A stretch of 41,059 nucleotides of DNA from a virus. The notes beneath the pieces are model-generated. The model did no database searches. It saw only the letters and a list, made by a program, of their open reading frames with translations, and had not been told where the DNA came from. The stretch is from positions 1 through 41,059 of IMG/VR virus record IMGVR_UViG_3300047380_001831, one strand, 5' to 3'. Of the stretch, positions 1,399 to 41,059 are shown piece by piece. The translations under genes and the position numbers were made by a program. The number at the start of each line of letters is the position of its first letter. Position 1 is the stretch's first letter.

Positions 1399-1793
1399 TA
1401 TTTGTTTTTGAATTTATAATAAATTTGTTTTTCCCATCCTAGCTTTTCAAATACCTTTTGAGAAGCTATATTATCGGTTTTTACATAAGCATCAACCTCA
1501 GCCCAACGAGGAGTATATTCTTGAATCATAAATGTTCCTATACCTTTACCATGGAATTTAGATGATACACAATAGGTTATTTCATGCCCTTTTAATAAAC
1601 CTATATAACCTGCAGGTTCTCCATCTACTAAACAAATTTTATAATCCCATTGATGTTCTGACATAAAGTCTTTTTGTTGTTCAGGAGTGATGTTAACTTG
1701 AGTAAAGAAACCTCCTTGATTATCGGGGTTAGTTCTTAATTGACGGACAAATTCCCAATATTGTTCTAGACAATTTACTAGTTCCATTTTCAT
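1398..1793 (-). CDS. GNAT-family N-acetyltransferase
   Basis: A 131-residue protein with the acetyl-CoA pyrophosphate-binding turn FHGKGIGTF (residues 80-88, the Q/RxxGxG/A motif) and a C-terminal strand pair (ASQKVFEKLGWE) usual for GNAT enzymes. Family members acetylate amino groups on small molecules, sugars or protein N-termini. The start overlaps the stop of the aminotransferase gene by four bases (ATGA), so the two are probably made together. A paired aminotransferase and acetyltransferase is typical of acetamido-sugar synthesis, where one adds an amino group and the other acetylates it. Whether the target here is a nucleotide sugar or a modified base is unknown. Met3 is an alternative start. 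Confidence 0.8.
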   Translation of the reverse strand: MKMELVNCLEQYWEFVRQLRTNPDNQGGFFTQVNITPEQQKDFMSEHQWDYKICLVDGEPAGYIGLLKGHEITYCVSSKFHGKGIGTFMIQEYTPRWAEVDAYVKTDNIASQKVFEKLGWEKQIYYKFKNK

Positions 1794-2947
1794 CGTTTTA
1801 TAGCTTTAATAACAGTTTTAACTACTTTTTTAGCATCTTCTTCTGTTAAAAACATATGAAGAGGGAGTGAAATTATTTCTTCACTTAGCTTATGAGCATT
1901 GGGACAAGTACCTTTTGCTTCTGAATATAAATCATATTGTGTATTGTCTTTGTAATGTACTCCAGGGAATATATCATTAGCGTTTAAATATTCCATTACT
2001 TCGTTTCTATTAGAAACTTTAATTTGATATAAATGACGAGAAGATTCACATTTACTATTATGAAGAATAGGTTGAATTAATTTTTCATTTTTAAATCCTT
2101 CATCATATAATTTACAAATTTCTCTCCTACGACTATTATCTTCATCTAAATAACGTAATGCTACTAATCCCATTGCAGCCATAATAGAGTTACCATGAGC
2201 TTTAAATCCTAAATCAATTACATCATAATCCCATTTATAACTGCCTTTAGAATTGGTACGATTAAAAGTATCTTTACTGATACCTAACCACGAAAGTTTA
2301 CGAGCTAAAGCATCATAATCTTTATTTTGAAAACAAATCATACCTCCATCAGCAGTAGGCATATTTTTAACTGATTGGAAGCTAAAGATGGAAACATCAG
2401 CGTCCCATCCTACATGAGATTTAGAAACTGCCACTCCATGAAATACTCTATCTACCTTAGTTCCTGCCATATGAGCAGCATCTAAAATAAGTTTTAAACC
2501 ATGTTTATCACATAATTTTTTAACTTCATTATATTGTCCAATATTACCTCCAATACCAACAAACATTACTGCTTTGGTTTTACGTGTAATTTTAGATTCA
2601 ATACTTTTAACGTCTAAACAAAGTTGATCATCGACATCAGCAAATATTGGTTTTAAATCATTATATAAAATAGCGTGATTTGAAGAAACAAAAGTAAGAG
2701 GGGTAGTAATTACTTCATCTCCATCTTTCCATTTATTAACATCTTTAAGGACTTTAAGAGCAATTTGAAGCCCAACTGTATTAGAAGCTATAAAATGTGC
2801 ATGGTTAAAATTAGTATATTTTTTCCATTCTTCTTCTAATTTTTCAGTCTTAAAACCCATTCCTGTCCATCCAATTTCTAGACATTCTGTAATTTCTTTT
2901 AAGATTTCTTCTGTACGATACTTTGGTTTAAAAACTTGAATTGACAT
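1790..2947 (-). CDS. DegT/DnrJ/EryC1/StrS-type PLP aminotransferase
   Basis: The family converts keto-sugars, usually nucleotide-linked, to amino-sugars with glutamate as donor. Visible marks, counted from ATG 2947, are the substrate loop GWTGMG (26-31), the phosphate-binding ASNTVGLQIAL (54-64), the cofactor-ring aspartate LILDAAH (Asp156) and the Schiff-base lysine in FSFQSVKNMPTADGG (Lys194). The usual start of the domain fits ATG 2947, which leaves 25 bases after queE and has an A-rich leader; a longer reading to 2995 would run into queE. At about 385 residues it has normal length. Its position between queE and a GNAT acetyltransferase is odd for a sugar enzyme and raises the question whether it acts on the modified base or on a virion sugar. 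Confidence 0.88.
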   Translation of the reverse strand: MSIQVFKPKYRTEEILKEITECLEIGWTGMGFKTEKLEEEWKKYTNFNHAHFIASNTVGLQIALKVLKDVNKWKDGDEVITTPLTFVSSNHAILYNDLKPIFADVDDQLCLDVKSIESKITRKTKAVMFVGIGGNIGQYNEVKKLCDKHGLKLILDAAHMAGTKVDRVFHGVAVSKSHVGWDADVSIFSFQSVKNMPTADGGMICFQNKDYDALARKLSWLGISKDTFNRTNSKGSYKWDYDVIDLGFKAHGNSIMAAMGLVALRYLDEDNSRRREICKLYDEGFKNEKLIQPILHNSKCESSRHLYQIKVSNRNEVMEYLNANDIFPGVHYKDNTQYDLYSEAKGTCPNAHKLSEEIISLPLHMFLTEEDAKKVVKTVIKAIKR

Positions 2948-2972
2948 TTTTTTTTTATTTAAACAATTTTTA

Positions 2973-3779
2973 TTATACTCCTCTTTTAGTATCAAACGCT
3001 ATAATATGATCTCTACCAGTCATGTTATATCCTTTTTCGGCACACATTTCAAATACTAAAGGATACATTTCAACTAAAGTTTCTCGAGTATCACCCGCAG
3101 GCATTATAAATGTTTTATCTTTAGGAACATTAATTTCTAGTCTATAAGCTTCAATTTCAGCAAGACCTTCATCTGTACCATCCCAAACAGGTTTAAAGTG
3201 GTAATCATTATGATAACTAAGAGTTTTCTTAATTGCTTCAGTATTAAGACGAAGACGATTATGAGTTTTAACCATTTTTTCATTTGTAACTGACCCATTA
3301 GGGGTAGCAGCTCCAACAACAGGAACACTATTACTAAATTTTGGAGAAAGAGAAATAAGACCTAGTGGATAATCTGTTTCGAGAAAATGAGAACCTTCAG
3401 TTTCAATTGTAATTAAGATACCTCTTTCATTTGCAAAATGTGTTATTTCATTTACTAAAGCAGGGTGCATAGTAGGACTACCACCTGTTAACATCATTTC
3501 TTTAACATGAGGATTTTCATCATAAATTTTAATAATGTCGTTAAATGTAAAGGTACCTTTTTCAGGGTGGACTGAAGTATACCAAGAATCGCACCACCCA
3601 CCTTCACCAAAATAACATCGATGAGTACAGCCAGTAGTACGAACAGCAATAGTAGGTCTTCCAAATCTAGACCCTTCAGATTGGACACACCTATAGATCT
3701 CAAGAATAGGTAATACTTTGTCATAATCTTTAATACGACCTAAAGGGGCCGTTTTATTCCATAATTTAGGATTCAACAT
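2973..3779 (-). CDS. queE: 7-carboxy-7-deazaguanine synthase (QueE), radical SAM
   Basis: QueE rearranges 6-carboxytetrahydropterin to 7-carboxy-7-deazaguanine using S-adenosylmethionine and an iron-sulfur cluster. Near the N-terminus, EIYRCVQSEGSRFGRPTIAVR matches the usual start of QueE (switch to substrate-binding Gln-Ser-Glu-Gly and Arg). The cluster cysteines follow as Cys51, Cys55 and Cys63. Their spacing, CX3CX7C, differs from the standard CX3CX2C. A GGSP sequence (MMLTGGSPTMHP) matches the SAM-binding GGEP motif. Several in-frame ATGs exist (3809, 3800, 3791, 3779); 3779 gives the smallest overlap with queD and is preferred, though 3791 is nearly as good. It lies between queD and the aminotransferase. 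Confidence 0.88.
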   Translation of the reverse strand: MLNPKLWNKTAPLGRIKDYDKVLPILEIYRCVQSEGSRFGRPTIAVRTTGCTHRCYFGEGGWCDSWYTSVHPEKGTFTFNDIIKIYDENPHVKEMMLTGGSPTMHPALVNEITHFANERGILITIETEGSHFLETDYPLGLISLSPKFSNSVPVVGAATPNGSVTNEKMVKTHNRLRLNTEAIKKTLSYHNDYHFKPVWDGTDEGLAEIEAYRLEINVPKDKTFIMPAGDTRETLVEMYPLVFEMCAEKGYNMTGRDHIIAFDTKRGV

Positions 3780-4233
3780 AGTAGGCTGCATTTTTACCAT
3801 GTTCAGCAAATTTAACTTTAGTAACTTTTACTCTACCTTCAGTTTCTTCGAGAACAAAATTATTAATTTTATTAAAAATATACTCAGCAAATTTTTCGGC
3901 TCCTGTAGCTTCAACAACTCTTAATTGAATTATACCTTCCTTATCTAGTCTTTCCCATTCTGGTAGGGCAGGATCGTCTTCAGCACAAACTAAAGTATGG
4001 TCAAACATATAATCCATCCATGCTTTAGGGGACATACCATCAATTTGAGTTTTAGCACGTTTCATACCACCAAAATCCCAAACCCAATTTCTATGATCTA
4101 AATCACCTTCAAAATAAACTTTAAACGAAACTCCATAACCATGAAGAAATCGACAATGAGTTGTATTTGCCTTCCACTGACGGAACACAGTTGAGAATCC
4201 ATCAAATACTTTACTTGACTGAAATTTACCCAT
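3766..4233 (-). CDS. queD: 6-carboxy-tetrahydropterin synthase (QueD-like)
   Basis: QueD turns dihydroneopterin triphosphate into 6-carboxytetrahydropterin. The 155-residue product keeps the catalytic Cys27, the pair Asp78-His79 (MFDHTLV) and Glu144 (KFAEHG), and the family strand WVWDFGGMKRAK. The zinc site is altered. The FxAAH histidine is Phe17 (FSTVFRQW) and the HGH motif is HGY (His31-Gly-Tyr33), so only one of three usual ligands remains; His26, next to the catalytic Cys, might replace one. The C-terminus AEHGKNAAYYVES replaces the usual ending. The operon position between thioredoxin and queE supports the assignment. It starts eight bases inside the end of the thioredoxin gene. Confidence 0.85.
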   Translation of the reverse strand: MGKFQSSKVFDGFSTVFRQWKANTTHCRFLHGYGVSFKVYFEGDLDHRNWVWDFGGMKRAKTQIDGMSPKAWMDYMFDHTLVCAEDDPALPEWERLDKEGIIQLRVVEATGAEKFAEYIFNKINNFVLEETEGRVKVTKVKFAEHGKNAAYYVES

Positions 4234-32957: not shown

Positions 32958-33446
32958 TTAGAAGTTTAAGATACAATAATCTGGTTGAACTACCATTGTA
33001 AGTGGTACAGCAGCATCTACTGTGTCCCAACTATAGTCTCCAAAATTAGCACTTTCGATTAATGCTCCTTTAATAATCCATTCTGATACTACATCACCTA
33101 CAGGACCTAATACATTAAATGTTAGATCTTTCTTATAGAAATCTGAATAACCATCTCTACCAGTAACTGATTCATGGTGTAGACGTACCCACTCCATTAC
33201 TGCTTGAGCACCTGAAGGTGTAATTGGGTCAAATAAGGTAAATGTAATTGGATTCCATACTGTTTTACCTTTAACATAACGTTGAACGTTAATATGGTTA
33301 AGAGCTACTTTACCTTGATTTAAGGTTACTGCACTTACACCTTTTACGATAAATGAAGGAAATCCATCCATATACATAATGAACCTATTGGGTTGTTTTG
33401 GTTCAAATGCTGTAAAGAATATTTCGTTTGGATCTAATACTGCCAT
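32958..33446 (-). CDS. Tail tube protein (gp19-like)
   Basis: A 162-residue protein of the contractile-tail tube type. It shows NEIFFTAFEPKQPNRFIMYM, FIVKGVSAVTLNQGKV, ITFTLFDPITPSGAQAVMEW and an ending MVVQPDYCIL. The beta-barrel layout with a loop for ring contacts matches T4 gp19 relatives in length and in its place right after the sheath gene. It forms the inner tube through which DNA passes. The leader carries the tail-region motif, and a strong terminator follows the gene. Confidence 0.88.
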   Translation of the reverse strand: MAVLDPNEIFFTAFEPKQPNRFIMYMDGFPSFIVKGVSAVTLNQGKVALNHINVQRYVKGKTVWNPITFTLFDPITPSGAQAVMEWVRLHHESVTGRDGYSDFYKKDLTFNVLGPVGDVVSEWIIKGALIESANFGDYSWDTVDAAVPLTMVVQPDYCILNF

Positions 33447-33491: not shown

Positions 33492-35225
33492 TTAACTAGG
33501 GAATGTTGCTCCCGTTGGTAATACATTAAAGTCTAGAATAATGAATTCTGCGGTTTTTGTTGGTTGTAAATAAATAGCACCAATCATTTGGTTTCTATCA
33601 ATTACATCCGGAGTGTTATTACTATCATCCATTACTACTTTAAACGCAAATAAACCTTGTCTTTGAACTACTGTTTCTAAATAAGGATTTATAATTGATA
33701 AAAAGTTATTTCTTGTAGCAGCAGTGTTTTGTTCAAATACTAATGTTTGAGCTACTTGACCAATATATGATTTTAATTGAATCAATAATCTTCTAACATT
33801 TACTCTATCTAAAGCACTTGCTTGACGTTGTAATGTTTTTTGTCCGTATACTACTGTTCCTACACCTGGGAATGAAGCAATTGGATTTACTTTATTCTGG
33901 TATAAACTATCTCTATTAGATTGAGATAATTTTCTTTCTGGACGAATTACTGTAGTTAAACCACCTCTATTAATACCTGCTGGAGCAAACCAAGGTTCAG
34001 CAGCATTATCATTAAATGCATAAACTCCTGGAATCATTGCTGAGGCTGGTACAAATACTTGATCACCCATGTCTGGGTCAATTGTTTGTAACCAAGGCCA
34101 GTAAGCAGCACCATATGATGAGTTTCTAGCATTAGCTTGTGTATTTGCTGCTGTAATAGTAGAAGCATAAGGAACTAAATCCATAATGTAAATACTATCA
34201 CCTCTCATTTGAGTATTGTTTAGAGCAGTAGTCATTTGAGAAGTTTGAGCTGTATCGATCAAACCTGGGGTTACTAGTAGATTAAATTGATAGTCATCTT
34301 GATTTGATAATAAATTTAACATATTATCATAATCAGAACCAATTAAACCTTGAGTATCTGTAGAATTAATATCACCATATAGATTCATTGTTCTACCTGT
34401 AGGAATTACACTACCTACACCTCCTGTAAATGTACCAGCATATGAACCTGAACCTACTTGAGGCATAGATGCTGTATATTCGTTTTTAGCATTACCTGCA
34501 TTATCAAAGTAATCTGGGGTCTTTTTATTTACAGTAGATACTCTAATATATCTAGAAGCATTAGCATATGAACCCGTTATTTCAATATAATTTTCTGTTG
34601 AATTATAGGTCTGGTATTGATCACCGATTATCTTAGCGATATAATTATCTGCTTTAGGATCTAATGATAAGTTAGTCCAAGATTCTAAAATGATCTTATT
34701 ATTATCATTATCATTACCTTGTCTTACTAATAAATTAAAATTACCATCTGCTTGAGAAGAATTAGCAACTTCCCATCTAATATTATCAGTTGAACCTGAT
34801 ACTAATGATCCTGAACCTCCTGTAATTAAGTTTGTAGATCCTGAGTTGTTAAAAATAATCCCTTTATCAATAGCTTCAATTGTAAATGAAGTACCACTTC
34901 CTGAAGCTGCGATTTCAGCTTGGGCAAAATCCCAAGTTGAAGAACCTGATACTACACGTGTTACTAACATAGTGTTACCTCCATTTTGGAAGTAGTTATA
35001 TGCTGCGATGTTAGTCATGAATGAATATTCATCACTACCACTATCAAATGTAGTACCAAATCTATTTTGGTAATCTGAGTATGAGGTTACTATTGTAGGA
35101 ATTTCTACAGGACCTTTTACTGTAGGACCAACGATAGCAGCACCTACTTGAACAGGTTGCTGCGTGATAAATGACTGGTCGTTTTCTCTTGCTAATACGC
35201 CAGGTGATACTAATGTTTCTGCCAT
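33492..35225 (-). CDS. Contractile tail sheath protein
   Basis: A 577-residue protein with clear sheath features. The N-terminus reads VSPGVLARENDQSF then GAAIVGPTVKGPVEIPTIV (insertion into a neighbouring subunit). Variable outer domains follow. The conserved C-terminal core contains GVGTVVYGQKTL, RVNVRRLLIQLKSYIGQ, ATRNNFLSIINPYLE and GAIYLQPTKTAEFIILDF. It contracts to drive the tube through the host envelope and defines this phage as a myovirus. It lies upstream of the tube gene by 45 bases. Confidence 0.96.
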   Translation of the reverse strand: MAETLVSPGVLARENDQSFITQQPVQVGAAIVGPTVKGPVEIPTIVTSYSDYQNRFGTTFDSGSDEYSFMTNIAAYNYFQNGGNTMLVTRVVSGSSTWDFAQAEIAASGSGTSFTIEAIDKGIIFNNSGSTNLITGGSGSLVSGSTDNIRWEVANSSQADGNFNLLVRQGNDNDNNKIILESWTNLSLDPKADNYIAKIIGDQYQTYNSTENYIEITGSYANASRYIRVSTVNKKTPDYFDNAGNAKNEYTASMPQVGSGSYAGTFTGGVGSVIPTGRTMNLYGDINSTDTQGLIGSDYDNMLNLLSNQDDYQFNLLVTPGLIDTAQTSQMTTALNNTQMRGDSIYIMDLVPYASTITAANTQANARNSSYGAAYWPWLQTIDPDMGDQVFVPASAMIPGVYAFNDNAAEPWFAPAGINRGGLTTVIRPERKLSQSNRDSLYQNKVNPIASFPGVGTVVYGQKTLQRQASALDRVNVRRLLIQLKSYIGQVAQTLVFEQNTAATRNNFLSIINPYLETVVQRQGLFAFKVVMDDSNNTPDVIDRNQMIGAIYLQPTKTAEFIILDFNVLPTGATFPS

Positions 35226-35542: not shown

Positions 35543-37840
35543 TTATTTTTTACTAGTTAATCTATTTTTTATTATTTTAAATACTTGCATCGGTGTTATT
35601 GATTTTTGACAAATATGTTGTTTTTCAGTTCCTTTATGAATAGGGCACCAATCCCAATCCCCAGCATCAAATACAAAATTACGATTAGTCCAACACGGGA
35701 AACAAGCATCATCATTCATTATACGTGTAATACGTGAAGTAAATTCATGGTGTTTATCACTAAACCCATTAATCATAACAGTATGTTTACCTAATGCCCA
35801 ATTTAACCATGATAAACCTGAACCTAAGCCTATAAATAAGTCAGCATGGTGTAAATAATTAGCTACAACATCTAATGGTTGGTTATAATGATTTATTACC
35901 CCATCTAATTTCCATTCTCCTTTAGTTAAAGATATAACTTTATATCCTTGTTGTTGGAGTAATTTACATAGAGTAACCCAATTCCCATAAACCCATTCTT
36001 TACATCCTGATGTAGCATTGGGGCCTATTACAATGTATTTTTCTTTATATGGTCTTTTTCCTTTAGGAAAATCTAAACCATAATTTAATTCTTTTTCTTC
36101 TAGTCCTAGAATATCGCTAGAGGTAGCTTGCATTGGAATTATATTACATTGACGTGGATGCATATCAAAGTTCTGCCAGCCCCCATTATCATCTCTAAAC
36201 CAACCTATTTTATAATGAGCAGTACATCCTGTTGAATTACCAGGTTCTAACCATTCTATATCTTTATAGGCTTCTAAATTTTTAAACCAATCATTATGGA
36301 ATGTAGATAAAATAACTTTACATTTATGTTTTTTAGCAAATTTTATAGCATATGGAGTCCAACCAATAGTATCACCTAAAGAATTAGAATCTAAAGATAT
36401 TAATACACGTTGTCCTTCTAATTCTAATCTAGAATGTTCTTTACCATTAATTTTAATTAACCAAGGAATATAATATTCTTTACTACAAGAAGTCCACATA
36501 TTATTATTAATAGTTGCTTTATGAATAACTTCATTAGTTTCTCTATTAATAAATTCAACTTCATATTCTTTAAAAACATCACCTAAAATTTCTACTTTAG
36601 GTGCATTTATATAATTAACATTAATAGTATTGGTATCTTCAAGTTTTTCAGAATTAGTAATAAAATCTTGTAAAGTTTCAGCTCCAATTTTACCAATATG
36701 TTCCCAATTAAAATCACGATGGATTAATTTAGCTTCTTCTAAAGCACGTTTTTTATGATCTACGTAATTTTCATAAGCATCTCTCATTACACGAGCTAAA
36801 TCTTCAAAATCAGGTTCATAATAATTACCTACTACTGTATTGAAATGGTTATAGTTAGCATCTAGTGCAGGGCGTTCACCTAATATTTTAACAGGAAGTC
36901 CTTTACCTTCAGCAAATTCCATTTGAGCGCAACAGGCTGAATATATAGCAGGAGTTCCACATGCCATGGCTTCAATTAAGGGTAAATTCCATCCTTCACT
37001 ACGAGCACAAGATAAAAATACATGACCATTTTTCATATAGGTAATATAATCTTCACGAGATGGAAAATGTTTTATTTTAATACGTTCATCTGTAAAATCA
37101 TAATGTTCTAAGCGTTCTTCTGTTGTTTTAAAGTTATCACCTGAGAATGGGTTATCAATTGATACTATTAGATCAACAGGTTCATTAGGTTTAAATTCTT
37201 TAAGAAAAGTTTCAATTATTTCTTTAGTAGATTTTCTATAATCCCAACGACCAAAAATAATAAATTTAAACCTACCATCTACATAATCTAATACCGTTTG
37301 AGGATCTTCAGGGTAAAATGTATTTGTATCTACACCTTCTGGGACTACTTTTACTTTATTAGGGTCAGCACCTTGTTTAATAGTACATTCAGCTTGCCAT
37401 TTGGATGGAAACCATAACTGATCGTATTCTAAAAGTTTATTAAAAAATCCTTCAGGTTGGAGAGTTGATTCCCAAACATTATAAGCAATTTTAGGACCCT
37501 TATACGAATCATAAAAATAATGGTGGTTAGTTTCTTCTAAAACTAGATTTACATTGTGTTTAAAATCATTAGGGTATTCTTTATAGATAGGAAATTCATC
37601 TCTGGTATCTTCCCCAGTCCATAATGTTTGTTCTATTAAGAGTTTTTTATCAACTTCGTTAATATAATCTTCTTTATGAGGTTCATCATTAGGCCAATCC
37701 CAATTTTTACCTATAGTAAAATTACGAACTTTTAAATCAACATATTTTTGTAGATGTCTGAAAAAATCACGGGTGTGATTATTATAACCTGTAGTACCTA
37801 CATATGAGGCATGAGCATAGACTTTTGGGGTTTTCTTCAT
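35543..37840 (-). CDS. Two-domain glycosyltransferase (GT4 plus heptosyltransferase-like)
   Basis: A 765-residue fusion. Residues about 1-400 form a GT-B enzyme of the GT4 type: VVPEGVDTNTFYPE, FIIFGRWDYRKS and the nucleotide-sugar motif SEGWNLPLIEAMACGTPAI. A linker of about 80 residues follows. Residues about 490-765 look like a second GT-B fold (ISLDSNSLGDTIGWTPYAI, IVIGPNATSGCKEW, FIGLGSGLSWLNWALGK), as in heptosyltransferases of the TibC/autotransporter type. That likeness includes a Cys713-x2-Cys716-x15-Cys732-x11-Cys744 set that may hold iron. Such enzymes sugar-coat surface proteins. It adjoins the sheath-region genes and three smaller glycosyltransferase-like genes, suggesting virion or host-surface glycosylation. 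Confidence 0.82.
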   Translation of the reverse strand: MKKTPKVYAHASYVGTTGYNNHTRDFFRHLQKYVDLKVRNFTIGKNWDWPNDEPHKEDYINEVDKKLLIEQTLWTGEDTRDEFPIYKEYPNDFKHNVNLVLEETNHHYFYDSYKGPKIAYNVWESTLQPEGFFNKLLEYDQLWFPSKWQAECTIKQGADPNKVKVVPEGVDTNTFYPEDPQTVLDYVDGRFKFIIFGRWDYRKSTKEIIETFLKEFKPNEPVDLIVSIDNPFSGDNFKTTEERLEHYDFTDERIKIKHFPSREDYITYMKNGHVFLSCARSEGWNLPLIEAMACGTPAIYSACCAQMEFAEGKGLPVKILGERPALDANYNHFNTVVGNYYEPDFEDLARVMRDAYENYVDHKKRALEEAKLIHRDFNWEHIGKIGAETLQDFITNSEKLEDTNTINVNYINAPKVEILGDVFKEYEVEFINRETNEVIHKATINNNMWTSCSKEYYIPWLIKINGKEHSRLELEGQRVLISLDSNSLGDTIGWTPYAIKFAKKHKCKVILSTFHNDWFKNLEAYKDIEWLEPGNSTGCTAHYKIGWFRDDNGGWQNFDMHPRQCNIIPMQATSSDILGLEEKELNYGLDFPKGKRPYKEKYIVIGPNATSGCKEWVYGNWVTLCKLLQQQGYKVISLTKGEWKLDGVINHYNQPLDVVANYLHHADLFIGLGSGLSWLNWALGKHTVMINGFSDKHHEFTSRITRIMNDDACFPCWTNRNFVFDAGDWDWCPIHKGTEKQHICQKSITPMQVFKIIKNRLTSKK

Positions 37841-37841
37841 A

Positions 37842-38594
37842 TTATCTCATTATATCACATCCACAATCAATTCCTCTGGTACCATTAAAACCAGAATTAA
37901 TAGGGGACATAGGAATATTATTTGTTTTTAAATAATGATAAATTAAAGTTTCATTTATAAAAATATCATCATAATCATTACTATATGAGGGATCTACAAA
38001 TATAGTATTAAGCATTTGGGGAAACAAATTACAATAAGTTTTCATTATATTATATCCACTAATAGCTATTTGATCATTCATTTGGTAAGCTGTATGGGGC
38101 CAGCTATCATCATACCCAAAATAATGTAATTTAGTTGGATCTAATTGAGTTAAATCTTCTAATAAAGAACAAGTATTAGCTACTCTATGAGTAAATAAAA
38201 GATCGTAACGAGTTTTAAATATAAGATCATAATGAATACCTGATTGGTTCATTAGATCCCAAGATCTTTTTAATGACATCCACATACCCATTTGAGAATT
38301 TAATCTTTGGTTATGTATCCCCATTATATTAGTATTATCAAATTGAATTGATTTTTCAAATAAATAATCTTTAGGTTGATACCAATCAATTAAATTATCA
38401 TATAAATTTTTATCTACATGGTGAACTTTTTCTAATCTTCCTCCTCTAAAAAAATTAAATTTATGAAATTCTTTAGCTTTCCAGGCATGGAGATACACAT
38501 CTATATCATAACGGTCTAAAAACCATTTTTTTAACTCTTGATACCCATTTCTATATCTACGGGGTTGTCCACTAATTAATAAAGCTATTTTCAT
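37842..38594 (-). CDS. Glycosyltransferase-like protein, tandem copy 1
   Basis: The 250-residue product opens MKIALLISGQPRRYRNGYQ, then YDIDVYLHAWK, YQPKDYLFEKSIQFD, KRSWDLM and a central LIFKTRYDLLFTH. These segments are shared with the next gene. The R-Y/F-D-L-L-F strand has the position and look of a nucleotide-sugar/metal site in GT-A enzymes, and similar short proteins are found beside glycosyltransferases in marine phages. Substrate and linkage cannot be read. It has no membrane segment or signal and lies one base from its neighbours. Confidence 0.7.
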   Translation of the reverse strand: MKIALLISGQPRRYRNGYQELKKWFLDRYDIDVYLHAWKAKEFHKFNFFRGGRLEKVHHVDKNLYDNLIDWYQPKDYLFEKSIQFDNTNIMGIHNQRLNSQMGMWMSLKRSWDLMNQSGIHYDLIFKTRYDLLFTHRVANTCSLLEDLTQLDPTKLHYFGYDDSWPHTAYQMNDQIAISGYNIMKTYCNLFPQMLNTIFVDPSYSNDYDDIFINETLIYHYLKTNNIPMSPINSGFNGTRGIDCGCDIMR

Positions 38595-38595
38595 A

Positions 38596-39363
38596 TTATC
38601 TCATAATTCTAGGTGTATCATAAGAATGGGTGTAATTGGAACCTAACATTACTTCATGTAAATTAATTTCTTGTTCAGGAGAAGTTTGTATGTCATTATC
38701 TCTTAAGTGCTGAAGTAAAGAAGTTTCTACATATAGATGACTAGCATCAATATCATTCATGAATTGTTTATATTTAGAATCTCTAAAATAATAATTAATT
38801 AAGTGGGGAAAGAAATTATGGTAAGTTTTCATAGCATTATATCCTCCAACTGCAAATTGATCATTAATATTTCGGATACCTTGTCTATCAAAACTATGTT
38901 TAAAAGAATGAACTTTAGAAGGATCTAATTGTGTTATATCTGTTAAATAAGGGTGATTTACTGGAGTATAATGAGAAAATAAAAGATCAAATCTTGCTCT
39001 AATAATGTAGTCATATTTAATTCCGGAGGATTCTAATAAATCCCAGGCTCTTTTAAATGATAAAGTCATACCAAAATGGCTATCAAATCTACCTACGTCT
39101 TCAATACCATAAGAGTCAAATCTAATACCTTTTTCAAATAAATGGTTTTTAGGTTGATATAATTCTAATGCTCTATCATAAGCTGACATATCAGCTTCAT
39201 ATTTATGCATTAACTTCCCATAATGATACTTATAGTAATATTTATCTTTCCAGGAATGCATGTAAACATCAATATCATATTTTGATAAAAAATGTTTATT
39301 TAATTCATAAAAACCAGCTTCTAATCTACGTGGTTGTCCACTTATAGTCATTGCTATTTTCAT
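38596..39363 (-). CDS. Glycosyltransferase-like protein, tandem copy 2
   Basis: A 255-residue paralogue of the gene at 37842-38594. It has the same opening (MKIAMTISGQPRRLEAGFY), YDIDVYMHSWK, YQPKNHLFEKGIRFD, KRAWDLL and DYIIRARFDLLFSHY, then NDQFAVGGYNAMKTYHNFFP. Both contain the Arg-x-Asp-Leu-Leu-Phe strand, so both may be active. The insertions and C-terminal parts differ, which suggests different acceptors or sugars after duplication. It overlaps the third copy by four bases (ATGA). Confidence 0.7.
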   Translation of the reverse strand: MKIAMTISGQPRRLEAGFYELNKHFLSKYDIDVYMHSWKDKYYYKYHYGKLMHKYEADMSAYDRALELYQPKNHLFEKGIRFDSYGIEDVGRFDSHFGMTLSFKRAWDLLESSGIKYDYIIRARFDLLFSHYTPVNHPYLTDITQLDPSKVHSFKHSFDRQGIRNINDQFAVGGYNAMKTYHNFFPHLINYYFRDSKYKQFMNDIDASHLYVETSLLQHLRDNDIQTSPEQEINLHEVMLGSNYTHSYDTPRIMR

Positions 39364-39893
39364 TCTATAGAAGTTTTAAGAATATCTAATGAAAGATTTT
39401 TAGTATGTAGGTGATATTTAATTAAACTTAAGGTTTCATTAATTTCCTTATTTTCCCAATTTTTATATTCTTCATCCATAAAAGTATAGTATAAAGCATA
39501 AGTAAAAACATCGGCATAATGTTCTGAAATTGTGGGGGAGCATATAGCAAATTTTTCAGGGGTATTATTATAAATAATTTCACCAAATTTAATATGAATT
39601 ATATGGTCGTAATCATTATTAGATTCTCTAATTAAATTATAACTAGAGTGTGTTGAATATAAATTATTTAAAATTTGATTTAACTCTAAATTATTATCAT
39701 CAAAAGGAATTGGTGGTTGAGTGTAAAAAGATTTAGGAGTATATAATTTTATAATTTCCTCTATATTATTTAAATTATCCCAAGTGTGAATATACACATC
39801 ACAATTATATTTATCTAAATAATTTTCTTTTAACCAATTATATCCTTCTTTATAATTAAAAGAATCTCCACTTATACAAATTGCTATACCCAT
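39360..39893 (-). CDS. Shortened, divergent copy 3 of the glycosyltransferase-like family
   Basis: A 177-residue relative of the two genes downstream. It keeps the opening pattern (MGIAICISGDSFNYKEGYNW, YNCDVYIHTWDN, YTPKSFY), but the central strand reads HIIHIKFGEIIYN, so the Arg and Asp of RYDLLF/RFDLLF are lost. The C-terminal third is short. It is therefore probably inactive as an enzyme, perhaps a partner of the other copies, or decaying. The frame is intact and coupled to its neighbours by overlaps of one and four bases. Confidence 0.6.
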   Translation of the reverse strand: MGIAICISGDSFNYKEGYNWLKENYLDKYNCDVYIHTWDNLNNIEEIIKLYTPKSFYTQPPIPFDDNNLELNQILNNLYSTHSSYNLIRESNNDYDHIIHIKFGEIIYNNTPEKFAICSPTISEHYADVFTYALYYTFMDEEYKNWENKEINETLSLIKYHLHTKNLSLDILKTSIE

Positions 39894-40507
39894 TATTTAA
39901 ATGATTCTCCTCCTAACCATAAAACAAAAGATTTTCTAGTACCTTTAGTTACAGGAGTTATTCTATGCATCATAAAAGAAGGGAAAATTACTACATTACC
40001 TTTACCTTTAGGTGCAGTCATAGGTTGTTGACCTCCTGACCAGATTTGTAAATCTCCACCTTCATACTCACTTGAATCAGATAATTGAACTGTAACTGAA
40101 ATTTTTCTAAATTTCATAAAACCAGAAGACCCAATATCCATATGCCAATCATAATGACCTTTATTAGTACTGTAATATTCAGTATATTGAATTTGTTCTG
40201 GCATATTATAAATGTTAAAATTAAACATTTCATTATTAGCGGTTTTGGCTAACATACCAATTTTATCATAAATCCATTTAGTGTCTTCACTAAAAGGTAC
40301 CCATTTAATTGTTGAACTACGTGAATCTAAACCTTCACCACTTTCTTGACCCCCAGATTCAGTAACACCTGGGGTAGATGGAATTTCTTGAACTTGGGTT
40401 TCTAATTGGGTTAATTCATCAGGAGTAAAACCTTCTTTAAACCAATAATAATTAGTTTGGTTAACATGCTTGTCAAAATCTAGTGGAAAAGAATAAAGTG
40501 TATCCAT
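39893..40507 (-). CDS. 2-oxoglutarate/Fe(II) oxygenase, PKHD (prolyl hydroxylase-like) type
   Basis: A 204-residue protein with the double-stranded beta-helix signature. It shows HYDWHMDIG (iron ligands His and Asp), KISVTVQLSDSSEYEGGDLQIW, then VVIFPSFMMHRITPVTKGTRKSF with the distal His and the basic residue that binds 2-oxoglutarate. This is the pattern of PKHD-type hydroxylases in phages and bacteria. The substrate is not known; hydroxylation of phage structural protein is a reasonable guess given the tail genes and glycosyltransferases alongside. It overlaps the third glycosyltransferase-like gene by one base. Confidence 0.87.
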   Translation of the reverse strand: MDTLYSFPLDFDKHVNQTNYYWFKEGFTPDELTQLETQVQEIPSTPGVTESGGQESGEGLDSRSSTIKWVPFSEDTKWIYDKIGMLAKTANNEMFNFNIYNMPEQIQYTEYYSTNKGHYDWHMDIGSSGFMKFRKISVTVQLSDSSEYEGGDLQIWSGGQQPMTAPKGKGNVVIFPSFMMHRITPVTKGTRKSFVLWLGGESFK

Positions 40508-40510
40508 ATT

Positions 40511-41059
40511 TTATTTATTTATTGATGTAAATGTTACTAATATATATCTTGTACCTTCTTCTACGGGACGACCCCCATGTAAATGAGTTATTGTTCCTGG
40601 GTGGCACATAGCATTACCTAATTTTTTAGGTTGTACAGTTGTTTTGTATTTAGGTAAATATGTACCTCCACCTTTAAAATCATCATTTAATCTGACATTT
40701 AAAGTAATTAAGGAACTATCATGGTGTAAATCTAAACTGCCTTGATTTTTTGTATCGTATTTAGCTATAAAATTCTCACTATTTAAAGTATTCCATTCAT
40801 CTCCTGCTAAATCCCAAAACCAAACCCAAATAGGGTAAACAAATTCTTCTAATACTCTTTGGTATATTTTTTGCATTTTTAAACTTTCCATTGTTTGGTC
40901 AGTTGTAGGATAAAATTTATGCCTATCTGTTACCCAAGTATGATCTTCTGCTAATTGGATAATTTCATTACAAAATTTTTCTGTAAATAAAGGAAATTCT
41001 AAAACATTAGGACCAATTTCATCTACCATTAATTTGTATTGTCCTTTTCTAATATGAGG
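40511..41059 (-). CDS. Lysyl-hydroxylase (PLOD)-like 2OG/Fe(II) oxygenase, 5' end outside window
   Basis: The frame stays open to the window edge; ATG 41029 is an internal candidate start but the upstream codons (HIRKGQYKL) read like protein too. The visible part follows the C-terminal domain of animal procollagen-lysine hydroxylases. It has NVLEFPLFTEKFCNEIIQLAE, LDLHHDSSLITLNVRLN (iron His and Asp), KGGGTYLPKY, then MCHPGTITHLHGGRPVEEGTRYILVTF with the distal His and the 2-oxoglutarate Arg. Animal enzymes and a giant-virus relative carry a glycosyltransferase domain before this one, so the missing N-terminus matters. Predicted reaction: hydroxylation of lysine in a protein, providing an attachment site for sugars. 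Confidence 0.83.
   Translation of the reverse strand, partial: PHIRKGQYKLMVDEIGPNVLEFPLFTEKFCNEIIQLAEDHTWVTDRHKFYPTTDQTMESLKMQKIYQRVLEEFVYPIWVWFWDLAGDEWNTLNSENFIAKYDTKNQGSLDLHHDSSLITLNVRLNDDFKGGGTYLPKYKTTVQPKKLGNAMCHPGTITHLHGGRPVEEGTRYILVTFTSINK

Follow-up and report, generated by a model that had tools for sequence, protein, structure and literature searches.

Sequence evidence for a candidate collagen-modification module beside the tail genes of a bacteriophage

The virus record IMGVR_UViG_3300047380_001831 is a contig of 41,059 bases, and the window analysed here spans the whole of it. Positions 35543-41059 hold an almost gapless block of minus-strand genes, separated by a few bases or overlapping. 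In order of transcription these are the end of a PLOD-like lysyl hydroxylase (LH), a PKHD-type 2-oxoglutarate (2OG) oxygenase, three small paralogues and a 765-aa two-domain glycosyltransferase (GT); one small gene, the tail sheath gene and the tail tube gene follow on the 3' side. A first-pass annotation made from the sequence alone had described this block and its placement upstream of the sheath gene, and every gene was confirmed at its coordinates (Table 1). It had also proposed that the phage may hydroxylate and then glycosylate lysines on its own tail or capsid proteins, with possible effects on host range and on immune or receptor recognition. The idea of lysine modification gained support from collagen-like genes lying upstream of the block in relatives, from a GT25 domain of COLGALT type that forms part of the hydroxylase chain, and from a link between LH and collagen lysines. 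These sequence data suggest, with a probability that we put at about 77%, that the block is a module with which these marine phages hydroxylate and O-glycosylate their own collagen-like fibres.

A lysyl-hydroxylase domain within a larger fusion

The PLOD-like hydroxylase was correctly identified in the first pass, but its 172-aa open reading frame is not a whole protein. The frame runs off the contig end and corresponds to the C-terminal quarter of a larger fusion that had been overlooked. In phmmer searches the LH domain matched human LH3 (Table 1) and mimivirus L230 (E 6e-19); the next matches were prolyl 4-hydroxylases, at just 5e-3. The ligand motifs HHD (residues 102-104), TH.H (148-151) and GTRY (159-162) align with those of LH3. 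The iron ligands HxD...H and the 2OG-binding Arg, whose roles are taken from PMC9614988, are invariant across 13 relatives.

A 99% identical contig, L001, extends the hydroxylase frame by 558 residues, and the whole gene in relatives encodes a protein of 775-830 aa (its start is cut or not resolved in L005, L019 and L026). The exception is L017, in which the gene (L017:4791-7118) occupies two frames of 635 and 125 aa and is either broken or misassembled. Sufficiently long relatives have the domain order GT4 (PF00534/PF13692), GT25 (PF01755), LH. GT25 and LH were found in one chain among relatives L001-L028 and in isolates, while the window holds the LH end only, so that the homology and fold of the GT25 domain were measured on relatives. 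Its best solved relative is human COLGALT1, matched at E 2.9e-13 by the L001 protein and at 1.6e-11 by the L027 domain. The GT4 and GT25 parts of the L012 fusion were modelled with confidence, and the top PDB match was again COLGALT1 (9evj, E 5e-14), with an overall TM-score that is low because several domains were compared at once. The GT25 EDD motif is kept.

Table 1. Enzyme block and adjoining tail genes in the window
Feature	Position	Strand	Evidence
LH domain, C-terminal end of GT4-GT25-LH fusion	40511..41059	-	LH3 E 1.3e-20; 5' part past contig end
PKHD-type 2OG-Fe(II) oxygenase	39893..40507	-	PF13640 E 2.5e-14; PiuC E 6e-7
Short SGQPR-family paralogue, 177 aa, possibly degenerate	39360..39893	-	phrog_13607 E 4e-7, residues 1-41 only
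SGQPR-family protein, GT-A-like glycosyltransferase	38596..39363	-	phrog_13607 E 1.6e-19
SGQPR-family protein, GT-A-like glycosyltransferase, modelled	37842..38594	-	phrog_13607 E 1.7e-23
GT4 fused to TibC/Aah-type (BAHT) protein O-glycosyltransferase domain	35543..37840	-	PF00534 E 1.6e-12; TIGR04414
Tail sheath	33492..35225	-	phrog_23 E 1e-72
Tail tube	32958..33446	-	phrog_4542 E 4.9e-20

Collagen-like genes beside the fusion and their lysines

As first noted, the window has no collagen-like repeats (no Gly-X-Y run of at least 5 was found), and the substrate had to be sought elsewhere. Six-frame translation of relatives revealed collagen-like genes just upstream of the block. A DNA pattern of spaced GG detected no Gly-X-Y runs in four relatives, perhaps because its glycine number or spacing was wrong. 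Relatives that reach far enough upstream carry one to three collagen-like genes, mostly of 780-1,430 aa, on the same strand before the fusion, from which at most one small gene separates them. Ten collagen-like proteins from relatives contain 242 lysines at Y and 0 at X in 2,596 triplets. Further upstream in some relatives lie giant fibres with more than 700 Gly-Ser/Thr-Ser (GST) triplets and lysine-free repeats. These giant fibres are 2,645-2,710 aa long (L044:7363-15495; G001 108940-116874, minus strand), and the one encoded by the 170-kb relative G001 has 2,645 aa.

To determine whether the fusion travels with lysine-bearing collagen, we examined 80 environmental (IMG/VR) fusion loci, counting only loci whose upstream sequence spans 9 kb or more. 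Gly-X-Lys collagen was found in 27 of these 28 loci. In a control set fetched by the unrelated core gene uvsW (loci at least 10 kb long), such collagen was present in 7/7 loci with the fusion and 0/30 without. The reverse test, on loci fetched by the GQKGQKGE DNA motif and having 3 kb downstream, recovered LH in 35/55. We also contrasted partly de-duplicated loci of the window family, all carrying the gene for the two-domain glycosyltransferase (GT4-TibC, see below). With LH, collagen lysines were present in 21/21 loci (655 at Y and one at X in 7,215 triplets); without LH they were present in 0/12 (0 lysines in 2,873 triplets), and the collagen just upstream was mostly Ser-rich (GSS/GTS). On the GT4-TibC tree, no fewer than four gains or losses of LH are required on branches with good support; lysine follows LH in 4/4 phylogenetically independent pairs.

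Cultured phages carry a similar enzyme. Cyanophages S-CAM9, S-8S53 and S-PRM1 and roseophage CRP-6 encode GT25, GT_PLOD (PF25342) and LH in one chain (PF25342 E 7.5e-47 in S-CAM9; S-PRM1 was assigned via 92% identity to S-CAM9). The S-CAM9 protein is gp218 (YP_009322466). These genes are mostly annotated as 'hypothetical protein' or 2OG oxygenase. A fibre gene at most 5 kb from the fusion has 55-99 Gly-X-Y triplets and 22-26 Gly-X-Lys. Such a tail fibre was found nearby in 4/4 isolates with the fusion compared to 0/5 with stand-alone LH-like oxygenases, for which no collagen was found in the surrounding 12 kb, or in the available sequence where this was shorter. The cyanophage fusion has 276 relatives in the environmental virus collection. 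A scan of genome_contigs, which reaches close relatives only, returned no bacterial relative, suggesting that the fusion is not a stray host gene.

Two side observations concern these phages. The stand-alone LH-like 2OG oxygenases (L053, L055, L056, L057, L058) lie mostly among replication genes, in several cyanophages adjoining RecA-like and primase-helicase genes; they appear to serve a different role. In marine virus AG-345-L05, a second GT25-like protein without LH (L054:3763-4944) directly follows the GT25-GT_PLOD-LH gene.

The accompanying glycosyltransferases and oxygenase

The two-domain architecture noted in the first pass was borne out for the 765-aa protein, whose membership of the TibC/Aah family of protein O-glycosyltransferases had been missed. 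Its C-terminal part scores 226.3 bits with TIGR04414 against a curated cut-off of 200 and matches the TibC structure 4rap at E 2.8e-38. TibC residues Asp110, Thr226, Lys230 and Trp305 correspond to D490, T610, K614 and W678, and all four iron-finger cysteines (C713, C716, C732 and C744) are retained; residue roles are from PMC4358343. TibC and Aah belong to a family of protein glycosyltransferases, and the substrates known for TibC are autotransporters of beta-helical form (PMC4358343); a protein substrate is therefore favoured for GT4-TibC as well. No autotransporter (beta-helix) gene was found beside GT4-TibC, the neighbours being collagen-like fibres and tail genes. Since GT4-TibC persists beside lysine-free Ser-rich collagens, these are suggested as its substrate. 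Microcystis phage Mel-JY01 shows the same pairing of GT4-TibC with a lysine-free Ser-rich collagen. Some variants have an extra middle domain (L018:5811-8750, L022:11720-14668, L032:4750-8430), which in L018 and L022 is an FkbM methyltransferase and in Mel-JY01 carries an FkbM annotation; this suggests a methylated sugar or glycan.

The three glycosyltransferase-like proteins proved to be paralogues of one family (phrog_13607, here SGQPR) with a predicted GT-A fold. The modelled member has a pLDDT of 89 and PDB matches to the GT6 enzyme BoGT6a (E 1e-6) and to glycogenin. The family has no informative Pfam match, and the fold identifies it as GT-A only. In a count that was not de-duplicated, SGQPR genes were present in 45/45 loci with LH and 0/10 without. 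The PKHD hydroxylase, whose assignment held up (Table 1), was present in 45/45 and 3/10 of these loci, respectively, and probably acts on the same fibres. A simple role as a prolyl 4-hydroxylase on Y-position proline was considered and judged improbable for most family members, as the prolines of the fibres, unlike those of animal collagen, occupy X in almost every case (1,640 compared to 98 at Y). In the collagens of L012, L003, L022 and L023 proline is almost solely at X, although Y is where this kind of prolyl 4-hydroxylation would require it; the fibres of L027/L222, by contrast, have many prolines at Y.

Proposed pathway, alternatives and setting

In the pathway that we propose, the phage's own collagen-like fibres are hydroxylated inside the cell, during or after translation, by the GT4-GT25-LH fusion, which would act on the lysines of their Gly-X-Lys triplets. 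The GT25 domain would then add a hexose to hydroxylysine, a series of reactions carried out by LH3 with COLGALT1 in animals and by L230 in mimivirus. The hexose would probably be extended by the SGQPR GT-A proteins, which were found only with the LH module, and possibly by the GT4 domain of the fusion. The probable targets of GT4-TibC, in turn, are Ser/Thr residues in the very long fibres of Gly-Ser-Ser/Gly-Thr-Ser repeats, and the modified fibres may form triple helices on the virion.

Several observations weigh against this proposal. The collagen gene of the window phage itself would lie past the contig end and is deduced from relatives. The loci are related: clustered at 70% identity, 11/14 fusion lineages (4 kb upstream) have Gly-X-Lys, and L075, L079 and L087 are fusion loci without it. 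The four independent LH gains or losses give a sign-test p of 0.125, and with only four pairs the test cannot reach 0.05. Genes inherited together as a cassette could show the same linkage. Lysine at Y was rejected as a diagnostic of modification, as phage collagens lacking LH commonly show it too, and the GQKGQKGE search motif itself favours it. At the enzyme level, the COLGALT1 D461-x-D463 motif keeps D463 and loses D461 in the window family, and both are lost in S-CAM9. The LH domain was poorly modelled in a structure prediction with 13 sequences. The sugar-binding Arg286 of TibC is replaced by Val659, so heptose may not be the sugar, and we term the protein BAHT-like.

If the enzymes instead acted on host surface polysaccharide or small molecules, for example in lipopolysaccharide (LPS) or capsule remodelling or superinfection exclusion, their nearness to fibres would reflect a shared role in host interaction. 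Many LPS pathways do employ GT4 and GT25 enzymes, the name of PF01755 refers to LPS, and PiuC exemplifies PKHD enzymes that have no part in collagen chemistry. We nevertheless regard this as very unlikely: the LH domain is closest to procollagen lysyl hydroxylases rather than to other oxygenases, its presence tracks the lysine content of the adjoining collagen, the stand-alone LH-like oxygenases of other phages have no collagen nearby, and TibC/Aah enzymes modify proteins (PMC4358343). It is likewise unlikely that the fusion only hydroxylates fibre lysines, for triple-helix stability or cross-linking, with GT25 and GT4 being structural or acting elsewhere. Mimivirus offers a parallel, as its virions contain hydroxylysine and glucosylation of it was not detected (PMC9614988). 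Against this stand the retained EDD motif and fold of GT25, the retention of GT25 together with a PLOD-type glucosyltransferase domain in the cyanophage proteins, and the SGQPR transferases that accompany LH in all 45 loci.

The target of GT4-TibC is less clear. It may share the fibre of the LH module, or modify other tail proteins such as beta-helix adhesins, instead of the Ser/Thr collagen; we hold this to be possible but doubtful. The known autotransporter substrates of TibC (PMC4358343) fit this alternative, as do the loci with LH that also have TibC beside Pro-rich collagen. Glycosylation of the Ser/Thr fibres is better matched by the mostly Ser-rich GSS/GTS collagen directly upstream of GT4-TibC where LH is absent, by the repetition of this pairing in Mel-JY01 and by the lysine-free GST fibre of G001.

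To our knowledge, hydroxylysine-linked collagen glycosylation is regarded as a trait of animals, the giant mimivirus being the only virus in which it has been characterised; its L230 was reportedly described by Luther et al. in 2011. L230 combines a GT25-like domain with a lysyl hydroxylase (reviewed in PMC9614988). The phage fusions resemble it in joining virus-encoded GT25-type and LH domains in one chain, with the same LH ligands and with viral collagen-like proteins. They differ in belonging to tailed phages of bacteria, in having the fibre genes adjacent and in that their activity is a prediction; the window family adds an N-terminal GT4, and the cyanophages a recognisable PLOD glucosyltransferase domain. 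In the animal pathway of LH3/PLOD3 and COLGALT1 (PDB 8zgc complex), Gly-X-Lys hydroxylation is followed by addition of galactose and glucose. Both enzyme types were recognised in the phages by sequence, GT25 also by fold, and we infer a counterpart pathway. The phage enzymes would be united in one polypeptide without an endoplasmic reticulum, in contrast to two separate secretory-pathway proteins. Unlike TibC and Aah, which GT4-TibC matches in TIGR04414 score and most active-site and iron-finger residues (PMC4358343), the phage protein is fused to GT4, sometimes also to FkbM, and lies beside collagen-like fibres.

A search of the open-access literature for PLOD, procollagen, hydroxylysine or collagen modification found no phage precedent, an absence that carries little weight. 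We know of no report of a modification cassette beside the collagens of E. coli prophages. Those collagens, too, are Gly-X-Y runs encoded by genes that are predicted to specify tail fibres (PMC3368898); here, a dedicated cassette adjoins the fibres.

On balance, we favour a broader model in which bacterial phages have a self-contained, one-polypeptide collagen-modification pathway, comprising lysyl hydroxylase and one or two glycosyltransferases of collagen type, for adjacent Gly-X-Lys fibres and a second, Ser/Thr-directed TibC-type enzyme for giant GST fibres, each gained or lost with its fibre. If so, animal-type collagen glycosylation would be widespread among viruses of bacteria. The fused enzyme set, paired with collagen-like fibres in cyanophages and a roseophage, would extend the trait to bacterial viruses and raise the question of the origin of the animal enzymes. 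Large phage genes labelled 'hypothetical' or '2OG oxygenase', at present counted among metabolic genes, would also acquire a function, and single-chain enzymes would become available for modified recombinant collagen.

The sheath protein of the window is closest to that of Flavobacterium phage immuto (51.5%), and Shine-Dalgarno-like motifs precede just 3/32 window genes; together these indicate a Bacteroidota host. No comparable module is listed in the annotated sheath region of immuto. Elsewhere in the window, at 1790-3809, a QueE-like radical SAM gene (phrog_2076) is paired with an aminotransferase-like one (phrog_3139); the two may belong to a 7-deazaguanine route.

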